From assembly GCA_030529365.1 (NCBI GenBank), contig JAUMXB010000006.1:1-64000 (forward strand): DNA of 64,000 nt. The letters are read 5' to 3'. The DNA comes from Cardiobacteriaceae bacterium (GTDB lineage: Bacteria; Pseudomonadota; Gammaproteobacteria; Cardiobacteriales; Cardiobacteriaceae). Under the pieces are notes generated by a model. The model was not told where the DNA came from. It saw only the letters and a list, made by a program, of their open reading frames with translations, and made no database searches. Position numbers and translations under genes: made by a program. Below, one piece after another: positions 24,584 through 27,561 of the stretch. The number at the start of each line of letters is the position of its first letter. The first letter of the stretch is position 1.

Positions 24584-24612
24584 TTGTAATCTTCACGCGA
24601 CAGCATTACAAT
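24584..24612 (+). promoter_or_regulatory. Candidate promoter of the tna operon
   Basis: TTGTAA (24584-24589), 17-bp spacer, TACAAT (24607-24612), about 90 bp upstream of the tnaC start codon. Matches are 4/6 and 5/6 to the sigma-70 consensus. I found no convincing CRP site at the expected distance. Confidence 0.55.
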
Positions 24613-24702
24613 GCGTCCACCTGAAGAATATCTTTTCAGGGATGCAAACTTCCTTCGCAATGAAGAAGTTTTTGCCGTAACTGCTTGTGTGAGGAAATAT
24701 TT

Positions 24703-24774
24703 ATGCGTACCGCGCTTTTCCCCTGCATCCGGTGGTTTAATCTGGATCATAAGCTGTCCGCGTTCTTTCCATAG
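24703..24774 (+). CDS. tnaC: TnaC tryptophanase leader peptide
   Basis: A 23-codon ORF (MRTALFPCIRWFNLDHKLSAFFP) upstream of tnaA, with Shine-Dalgarno GAGGAAA at 24691-24697. It matches E. coli TnaC in the residues that matter for tryptophan-induced stalling: WFN at 11-13, Asp15, Lys17, and a final proline 12 residues after the Trp (W12 to P24 in E. coli). The stop is UAG rather than UGA. The next 60 nt are C-rich and G-poor, as expected of a Rho-loading site. Inference: tryptophan stalls the ribosome at the stop codon, masks the Rho site and allows transcription into tnaA-tnaB. Confidence 0.9.
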   Translation: MRTALFPCIRWFNLDHKLSAFFP

Positions 24775-24862
24775 TCCTCTTCTTTTTCCCCTGTCCACCT
24801 GCACGTCTGTGCGCCCCGCCTATTCGGCAACACTACCGTTTTGATATCAAGAGGATTTAACC
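24775..24862 (+). promoter_or_regulatory. tnaC-tnaA spacer, probable Rho-dependent attenuation region
   Basis: An 88-nt spacer that starts with a pyrimidine run (TCCTCTTCTTTTTCCCCTGT) and continues C-rich, with no intrinsic terminator hairpin. This is the expected layout for Rho-dependent termination controlled by TnaC stalling. It is shorter than the E. coli spacer of about 220 nt. AAGAGGA lies just before tnaA as its ribosome-binding site. Confidence 0.5.
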
Positions 24863-26278
24863 ATGGAAAACTTCAAACATCTCCCCGAGCCCTTCCGCAT
24901 CCGCGTCATCGAGCCTGTCAAGCGCACCACCCGTGAATACCGCGATGAAGCCATCGTCAAGGCCGGCATGAACCCCTTCCTCCTCGACAGCGAAGACGTC
25001 TTCATCGATCTCCTGACCGACAGCGGCACTGGCGCGATCACGCAAGACATGCAGGCCGCCATGCTGCGCGGCGACGAAGCCTACAGCGGCAGCCGCAGCT
25101 ATCACGCACTGTGCAAGGCCGTGAAAGAAATCTTCGATTACGACTACACCATCCCCACCCACCAGGGCCGCGGCGCCGAGCAAATCTACATCCCCGTGCT
25201 CATCAAGAAGCGCGAAGCCGAGAAAGGGCTGGATCGCAGCAAGATGGTCGCCTTCTCCAACTATTTCTTCGATACCACCCAGGGCCACACGCAAATCAAC
25301 GGCTGCGTGGTGAAAAACGTCTATACCAAGGAAGCGTTTGATACCGGCGTCAATGCCGACTTCAAGGGCAACTTCGATCTGGAAGCGCTGGAAAAAGGCA
25401 TCCAGGAAGCCGGCCCTGCCAACGTTCCCTATATCGTTGCCACCATCACCTGCAACTCCGCAGGCGGCCAGCCGGTCTCGATTGCCAACCTGAAGGCCAT
25501 GTACGAAATCGCGCGCAAGTACGACATCCCCGTCGTCATGGATTCCGCGCGCTTTGCCGAAAACGCCTACTTCATCCAGCAGCGCGAAGAAGCTTTCAAA
25601 AACAGCACCATCGAAGAAATCACGCTTGAAGCCTACAAATACGCCGACCTGCTCGCCATGTCCGCGAAAAAAGACGCCATGGTGCAAATGGGCGGTCTCC
25701 TCTGCTTCAAGAATGAAAGCATGTTCGACGTTTACACCGAATGCCGTACCCTCTGCGTCGTGCAGGAAGGCTTCCCCACTTACGGCGGTCTGGAAGGCGG
25801 CGCGATGGAGCGTCTCGCCGTTGGCCTTCGCGACGGCATGCGCCAGGACTGGCTCGCCTACCGCATCGGCCAGGTGCAATATCTGGTGGACGGCCTCGAA
25901 GCCATCGGCGTCGTATGCCAGCAGGCAGGCGGCCACGCCGCGTTCGTCGATGCCGGCAAATTGCTGCCGCACATCCCGGCCGACCAGTTCCCGGCACAGG
26001 CGCTCGCGTGCGAGCTGTATAAAGTCGCGGGCATCCGCGCTGTGGAAATCGGCTCCTTCCTCTTGGGACGCGATCCGAAAACCGGCAAGCAGCTGCCCTG
26101 CCCGGCAGAACTGCTGCGCCTGACCATTCCGCGCGCCACCTACACCCAGACCCACATGGACTTCGTCATCGAAGCCTTCAAGCAGGTCAAGGCCAACGCG
26201 AAAAACATCAAGGGACTCACCTTCACCTACGAGCCGAAAGTGCTGCGCCACTTCACTGCCCGTCTGAAAGAAGTCTGA
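24863..26278 (+). CDS. tnaA: Tryptophanase
   Basis: Pyridoxal-phosphate lyase that converts L-tryptophan to indole, pyruvate and ammonia. The 471-residue length matches E. coli TnaA. The start [20 protein letters not shown], the [10 protein letters not shown] segment and the PLP-lysine motif MSAKKDA (Lys in the KKD) are conserved. It sits behind the tnaC leader and ahead of tnaB, so indole production should be tryptophan-inducible. Confidence 0.98.
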
Positions 26279-26343: not shown

Positions 26344-27561
26344 ATGAACAAACAACCTTCCGTTATTGGCGGCGCCTGTATCATCGCTGGCGTCTGTGTG
26401 GGCGCAGGCATGCTCGCCCTGCCCATTTCCGGCGCCGGCGCGTGGACGCTGTGGTCGGCGGCCGTCCTCATCCTCACCATGGCCTGCATGACGCTCTCCG
26501 GCTGGATGCTGCTCGAATCCTACAAGCACTACCCCGACCTGCGCGTCTCCTTCAACACCGTCACCAAAGACGTGCTCGGCCCTGTCGCCAACATCATCAA
26601 CAACCTCTCCGTCTATTTCGTCGGCGGCATTCTGCTCTATGCCTACATCACCGTAGCGGGCGACATCCTGAACGGCGTGCTCGGCCTGAACGCGCGCGTC
26701 GGCTCCATCCTCTTTGCCCTCATCTTCGGCGCCTTCGTCTGGCACTCCACGCGCGCGGTTGACCGCATCTCCGTGCTGCTCATCGTTTTCATGGTTCTGA
26801 GCTTTGCCTTCAGCATCTTCGGCCTCACCGCCAACATCAAGCTCGACGTGCTCTTCGACCGCCTGAATCCCAACGGCGAATACCTGCCCTACACCATGAT
26901 GTTGCTGCCGGTAGCGCTCACCTCCTTCGGCTACCACCACTCCGTAGCCTCCATGCGCGCCTACTACGGCGAAGAGAAAAAAGCCTCGCGCGCCATCCTC
27001 TTCGGCATGCTGATCGCGCTCGCCCTCTATCTCCTGTGGATTACCAGCATCTTCGGCAACCTGCCGCGCGACCAGTTCGGCCCCGTCCTCACGACCGACA
27101 AAGACCAGCTCGGCGTGCTGCTCTCCACCTTGGGCAACGTCATCGATTCCGGCAACGTACAGAAATCCATCAACGCCTTCTCCTGGGCCGCAATACTCTC
27201 CTCCTTCATCGGCGTGGGACTGGGCGTATTCGATTACCTTGCCGACCTCTTCAAAATCGGCAATACCCCGGCAGAACGCGGCAAAACCTGGGCGCTCACC
27301 TTCCTCCCGCCGCTCGTCTTCTCGCTCGCCTTCCCCTTCGGCTTCGTCTATGCCATCGGCTATGCCGGTGCCGTTGCCACCATCTGGGCATGCATCATCC
27401 CGGCACTGCTCGCGTGGAAAATCCGCAAGACGCACGACAACGCCGGCTTCAAAGCCCCGGGCGGCAATGCCATGGTCTTCCTCGTCATTGTCTTCGGCAT
27501 CGCCACCGCCGCCTTCCACTTCCTCAGCATGGCCGGCGTACTACCCGTCTTCAAAGGCTGA
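26344..27561 (+). CDS. tnaB: Tryptophan/aromatic amino acid permease
   Basis: Inner-membrane permease of the hydroxy/aromatic amino acid family (TnaB, Mtr, TyrP). The 405-residue product has about 11 hydrophobic helices and the family N-terminus SVIGGACIIAGVCVGAGMLALP. Assignment to tryptophan uptake rests on its place directly behind tnaA. AAGGAAAACCC precedes the ATG. Confidence 0.92.
   Translation: MNKQPSVIGGACIIAGVCVGAGMLALPISGAGAWTLWSAAVLILTMACMTLSGWMLLESYKHYPDLRVSFNTVTKDVLGPVANIINNLSVYFVGGILLYAYITVAGDILNGVLGLNARVGSILFALIFGAFVWHSTRAVDRISVLLIVFMVLSFAFSIFGLTANIKLDVLFDRLNPNGEYLPYTMMLLPVALTSFGYHHSVASMRAYYGEEKKASRAILFGMLIALALYLLWITSIFGNLPRDQFGPVLTTDKDQLGVLLSTLGNVIDSGNVQKSINAFSWAAILSSFIGVGLGVFDYLADLFKIGNTPAERGKTWALTFLPPLVFSLAFPFGFVYAIGYAGAVATIWACIIPALLAWKIRKTHDNAGFKAPGGNAMVFLVIVFGIATAAFHFLSMAGVLPVFKG

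Follow-up and report, generated by a model that had tools for sequence, protein, structure and literature searches.

A TnaC-type leader and a predicted stall-opened hairpin over the tnaA initiation region in a Cardiobacteriaceae bacterium

Tryptophanase expression in a Cardiobacteriaceae bacterium is probably controlled by a TnaC arrest peptide that drives translation attenuation of tnaA, with a possible contribution of Rho. The locus lies on contig JAUMXB010000006.1, in the stretch of 64,000 nucleotides that was analysed and is referred to here as the window. The explanation builds on the observed anatomy of the leader, its conservation, and the complementarity and co-variation of the RNA, from which we infer stalling, the RF1 block, the hairpin in vivo and the direction of control. 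At low tryptophan, the ribosome would be released at UAG, and the freed UUUCCAU-AGUCCUCUU would pair with AAGAGGAUU and AUGGAAA, hiding both the Shine-Dalgarno sequence and the start codon of tnaA. With tryptophan present, Trp11, Asp15, Leu18, Phe22 and Pro23 would bind the free amino acid together with the exit tunnel. RF1-mediated release would then be blocked, the ribosome would park on the 5' arm of the hairpin with Pro23 in the P site, and the freed initiation region would allow translation of tnaA. In addition, Rho may terminate tnaA transcripts that go untranslated and so contribute to the effect. Attenuation of this kind, added to Rho control or replacing it, is the best explanation for the locus. 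The leader region comprises the following features.

24584–24612, forward strand: promoter-like sequence TTGTAA-17-TACAAT, a weak candidate (9 of 12 positions match; chance alone would give 0.7 such sites)
24691–24695, forward strand: GAGGA, Shine-Dalgarno sequence of tnaC, read directly; GAGGA or GAGGGA aligned in relatives
24703–24774, forward strand: tnaC, 23 codons and UAG; homologues 5' of tnaA in Cardiobacteriaceae, Neisseriaceae, Pasteurellaceae and others
24733–24735, forward strand: Trp11 codon (E. coli Trp12), from the translation
24745–24747, forward strand: Asp15 codon (E. coli Asp16), from the translation
24766–24771, forward strand: Phe22-Pro23 codons (E. coli positions 23 and 24), the expected stall site and natural R23F equivalent
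24863–26278, forward strand: tnaA, tryptophanase (PF01212, E 4e-80; 86–96% identity to TnaA of other genera)
26344–27561, forward strand: Trp/Tyr permease gene in the tnaB position (PF03222, E 3e-128)

The open reading frame encodes the 23 residues MRTALFPCIRWFNLDHKLSAFFP, ends with TAG at 24772–24774 and is preceded by a good Shine-Dalgarno sequence, GAGGA. The sequence-only reading had described a complete TnaC leader before tnaA, which the reading frame, its Shine-Dalgarno sequence and the PF01212 match of tnaA confirm. It had also correctly given 88 nt between tnaC and tnaA (24775–24862), and placed Trp, Asp, Lys and Pro at the E. coli spacing, as found for W11, D15, K17 and P23 (12 residues from W to P). 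Most other positions differ, as it had stated, with 6 of 23 aligned residues identical to E. coli. The window contains the pattern WFN.D.K.....P-stop a single time, and none of 30 shuffles contains it. A short open reading frame with its own Shine-Dalgarno sequence lies directly 5' of tnaA, and its W11, D15, L18 and P23 correspond to E. coli Trp12, Asp16, the medium hydrophobic residue 19 and Pro24, a pattern shared by relatives. The alignment of leaders from relatives, which had been proposed as a check, places the same peptide class before tnaA there. The sequence supports MRTALFPCIRWFNLDHKLSAFFP as a TnaC-type tryptophan-sensing leader at which ribosomes would stall. Neither Pfam Tna_leader (PF08053), searched in protein and genome at the model cut-off, nor Rfam returned a match for the leader. 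PF08053 matched only E. coli among the control genomes, and the profile appears narrow, hence annotation that depends on it may overlook TnaC peptides outside enterobacteria. Position 24584, where the region highlighted by the sequence-only reading begins, falls on the -35 hexamer of the weak promoter-like site. Two hairpins are predicted between this site and tnaC (24613–24675), GCGUCC..CCUGAAGA/UUUUCAGGGAUGC and AAACUUC/GAAGUUU, the second followed by U's.

The closest named TnaA (96%) is encoded by L001, a Cardiobacteriaceae metagenome-assembled genome (MAG) of the same genus; Cardiobacterium hominis and C. valvarum belong to the same family. An even draw of 369 Gammaproteobacteria yielded no new TnaA, and family-level searches were therefore used. 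The resulting leader set combines 80 named TnaA loci, 48 Pasteurellaceae genomes and three Neisseriaceae genomes, partly overlapping, and key relatives are among its MAGs (L001, L003, L045 and L075). Residues and stops were surveyed in 115 leader loci with Pro in register, a few genomes being counted twice. Eight Photobacterium loci carry two tandem TnaC-like peptides upstream of tnaA. One of them ends in ..WYNxDHKLSFHLSSE or similar, with Ser at the Pro24 position, and the peptide nearer tnaA ends in ..FFP or ..YFP plus 2–7 residues. Eight further loci from Vibrio and relatives encode TnaC-like peptides with W...D and no Pro in the Pro24 register, as in AWYTHDYQISILPSFAHA, where Pro stands one residue early. 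A beta-eliminating lyase 43–46% identical to TnaA is present in two genomes of family members, in one of them (that of L075) alongside tnaA, and is possibly a tyrosine phenol-lyase or a divergent tryptophanase.

In L075, a relic-like tnaC, WFNLDRVLSADFH (253–381), runs beyond the point where Pro and stop would stand and ends at a UAG 11 nt before tnaA. Compared to C. hominis, both Pro and stop are absent, and the arrangement would couple translation to tnaA. The loss may be an error in a low-coverage MAG. If real, it would mean that loss may occur in the family. On this count the window leader could itself be a degenerate relic without tryptophan-dependent stalling, with tnaA constitutive or controlled at transcription initiation only. 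Such decay is highly improbable for the window, however, given that Trp, Asp, Leu, Phe and Pro are kept, as are the ribosomal contact residues, and that the C-terminus of the peptide and UAG are common to all intact leaders of the family. The window genome retains Lys90 of uL22. The E. coli 23S rRNA query had no match in the window's own assembly, therefore the 23S rRNA of C. hominis was read instead, and it keeps A752, U2609, A2058, G2061, A2451 and U2585.

The penultimate residue, overlooked by the sequence-only reading, is Phe22 and corresponds to E. coli position 23, making the leader a natural R23F equivalent. Half-maximal stalling of the E. coli R23F mutant takes about 30-fold less tryptophan, and Phe at this position was noted as common among homologues (PMC8429421). 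By analogy, Phe22 predicts a high tryptophan sensitivity of the window leader. Across the 115 loci, Phe precedes Pro in all 70 that continue past Pro (53 distinct peptides) and in 26 of the 45 that stop at Pro. The residues R, I and H in front of Pro are confined to SKWFN-class peptides of Enterobacterales, as are most cases of L. Residues other than Phe are therefore tolerated only where the stop directly follows Pro, in agreement with the association of R23F with elongation arrest that has been reported (PMC10941005). An E. coli strain, N-01, has Cys in place of Arg23. Leu18 occupies the position of E. coli Ile19, and I19L is fully functional in E. coli TnaC (PMC3902921). The sequence-only reading had counted Lys among the needed residues, which we reject: the position (E. 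coli 18) holds K in 75 loci, R in 23 and other residues in 17 (V, I, T, Q and S are found), and both Cardiobacterium species carry V there.

UAG terminates all four intact Cardiobacteriaceae leaders. Stops of the 45 surveyed leaders ending in Pro are UAA in 33, UAG in 11 and UGA in one (K-12). Of four E. coli records read, EDL933 and one other use UGA, and two from lower-identity bands use UAA. The contrast drawn by the sequence-only reading between UAG here and UGA in E. coli thus holds for K-12 and breaks down for other E. coli ending in UAA. Stop codons vary among leaders, therefore release-factor identity varies too, and the contrast of RF1 and RF2 is not a distinctive adaptation. UAG as a special adaptation was rejected since all three stops are found. 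The contrast is also weaker than had been claimed, given that UAG is family-wide and UAA commonest elsewhere; as a natural test of release factors it stays usable. The arrest peptide SpeFL blocks RF1-mediated release (PMC8429421) and is a precedent for RF1 inhibition.

The spacer between tnaC and tnaA contains the elements of a predicted hairpin masking the Shine-Dalgarno sequence and start codon of tnaA, which the sequence-only reading had not described.

24766–24781, forward strand: 5' arm, UUUCCAU followed by AGUCCUCUU; wholly within the expected footprint of the stalled ribosome; arms kept in L001
24782–24848, forward strand: loop of 67 nt, C-rich and G-poor at its start
24849–24857, forward strand: first 3' arm, AAGAGGAUU, the Shine-Dalgarno sequence of tnaA, from folding
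24863–24869, forward strand: second 3' arm, AUGGAAA, the start codon of tnaA, from folding; 9–10 bp equivalent in C. hominis and C. valvarum

The seven bases that directly follow UAG, UCCUCUU (24775–24781), pair with AAGAGGA at a predicted probability of 0.75–1.0. The last tnaC codons, UUUCCA, and the following U are complementary to AUGGAAA at the start of tnaA. Both arms together are predicted at about -17 kcal/mol. For the stalled ribosome, we assumed a footprint reaching ~15 nt to either side of the first base of the P-site codon, with Pro23 in the P site. Opening the Shine-Dalgarno sequence of tnaA is predicted to cost ~8–9 kcal/mol with the ribosome released and 3–4 with the footprint blocked (~5 lower). 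A switch as strong as the leader's own arose in 2 of 200 spacer shuffles for the window, and in none of 200 for L001 and L003. Taken alone, the window is modest, with 18 of 200 arm-only shuffles as good and its own partner ranking 2 of 14. L001 conserves both arms around a loop that has diverged in length and sequence, its spacer being 54 nt long compared to 88. As predicted pairing and co-variation, the locus shows a hairpin of the SecM/ErmCL type that would hide the Shine-Dalgarno sequence and have its 5' arm under the stall.

Co-variation was assessed in leaders with spacers below 140 nt (59 loci, 48 distinct, 14 sequence clusters, one cluster holding 43 of the 59 loci) from Cardiobacteriaceae, Neisseriaceae and part of Pasteurellaceae. 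Pairing was computed between the 22 nt that follow the Pro codon and the 22 nt before tnaA, and z-scores refer to duplex energies rather than full co-transcriptional folding. We used swapped-partner tests in place of column-wise covariation because the register of the helix differs from one species to another. Mean pairing was -7.2 kcal/mol compared to -5.6 in dinucleotide shuffles (0 of 300 as good), and own partners beat those of other species (0 of 20,000 swaps, z -5.4). After collapse to the 14 clusters, the signal (z -5.9) peaks at the stall position, is gone at -12 and is weak at +12; swapping partners among single representatives of the clusters gives z -5.0. Sliding the other arm places a matching peak at the tnaA Shine-Dalgarno sequence (z -7.2). 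The 56 distinct leaders with long spacers (Enterobacterales, Vibrio, Aeromonas and Photobacterium) show no preference for their own partner (p 0.16 and 0.30). Long-spacer leaders do give a signal between -12 and -6 (z about -3), which was considered as masking and rejected, because it falls in the Phe-Pro codons and own-partner preference is lacking at the stall position.

Individual short-spacer leaders keep the pairing with different sequences, including UUUCCUUUUUUGC/GCAAAAAAGGAAA in L003, AUCCUCUUU/AAAGAGGAU in L045, UCCUCAA/UUGAGGA in Histophilus and AAAUCCU/AGGAUUU in Actinobacillus. C. hominis pairs GUUUUCCAU/AUGGAAAAC as well as CGUUUC/GAAACG. In the Histophilus and Actinobacillus leaders, the anti-Shine-Dalgarno sequence is built from codons past the arrest Pro. 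C. valvarum lacks an anti-Shine-Dalgarno arm and has start-codon pairing only, and little or no switch is seen in L103, L137 and several Haemophilus-like leaders. The codons for FFP and MEN are partly complementary by coding alone, and pairing at the start codon therefore counts for less than pairing at the Shine-Dalgarno sequence.

Transcription attenuation as in E. coli, with the stall hiding a Rho loading site at the spacer start, would make the complementarity secondary; at low tryptophan, Rho would halt RNA polymerase ahead of tnaA or within its first part. This mechanism is experimentally established in E. coli (PMC8429421, PMC3902921), and the window genome encodes Rho (TIGR00767, 686 bits). 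The window spacer contains 35% C against 16% G, is C-rich and G-poor at its start, and no intrinsic terminator was found in it. Yet it spans only 88 nt (54 in L001), and relatives do not share its high C content (10% in C. valvarum, 12% in Mannheimia). Rho gating would also not predict that stall-site RNA co-varies with the tnaA Shine-Dalgarno sequence, and we consider it unlikely as the sole account. Masking and Rho might instead act with comparable weight, masking halting tnaA translation and Rho polarity following, with mRNA and protein both rising with tryptophan. The presence of Rho, the C-rich spacer and the predicted hairpin are all consistent with such a double layer, but the role of Rho here is read from sequence, which cannot separate the layers. 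We regard this as a real possibility, if short of an even chance; it overlaps with the preferred explanation of translation attenuation with some Rho contribution, and the likelihoods of the two are not exclusive.

Textbooks present TnaC as an example of a ribosome that senses a metabolite, with a Rho-dependent output. We found no prior report of translation attenuation in tna leaders in the open literature. Judged by sequence, the sensor is of the TnaC kind, and the output appears to be a variant undescribed in the literature searched. We lean slightly towards a single tryptophan sensor with two outputs: Rho gating with long spacers (Enterobacterales, Vibrionaceae and Aeromonas) and unmasking of the tnaA Shine-Dalgarno sequence and start codon with short spacers (Cardiobacteriaceae, Neisseriaceae and part of Pasteurellaceae), where the codons past the arrest Pro of tailed Pasteurellaceae leaders would form part of the masking arm. 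If true, sensing peptide and output RNA would be separable modules swapped in evolution, and the type of output could be predicted from spacer length. Natural sequences also offer Phe before Pro, the hypersensitive R23F state, as the rule outside Enterobacterales, and UAG leaders in which RF1 inhibition could be tested without designed mutants.

Compared to known systems, the locus most resembles E. coli tnaCAB in having a leader before tnaA-tnaB, the equivalents of Trp12, Asp16, Ile/Leu19 and Pro24, and a stop right after Pro. It differs in carrying Phe where E. coli has Arg23, in its UAG stop (UGA or UAA in E. coli), in a spacer of 88 nt against 220, and in the predicted helix masking Shine-Dalgarno sequence and AUG with its 5' arm under the stall. 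Proteus vulgaris TnaC is another leader with a short spacer. By its published description, it conserves Trp, Asp, Leu and Pro and arrests in elongation at Lys33, past the Pro (PMC3902921), whereas here the stop directly follows Pro. Phe before the terminal Pro is shared with E. coli TnaC(R23F) (PMC8429421); here it is natural and combined with UAG, so that RF1 instead of RF2 would be blocked. SpeFL is likewise an arrest peptide with a block of RF1 release, as proposed here, but it is a different peptide and senses ornithine. In ErmCL-ermC, a stall opens the hairpin hiding the Shine-Dalgarno sequence of the next gene. The stalled ribosome does the same in SecM-secA (PMC3130931). The logic proposed here, a masking hairpin opened by a stall, is that of both systems, with an unrelated peptide, free tryptophan as the signal and an arm that would also cover the start codon.
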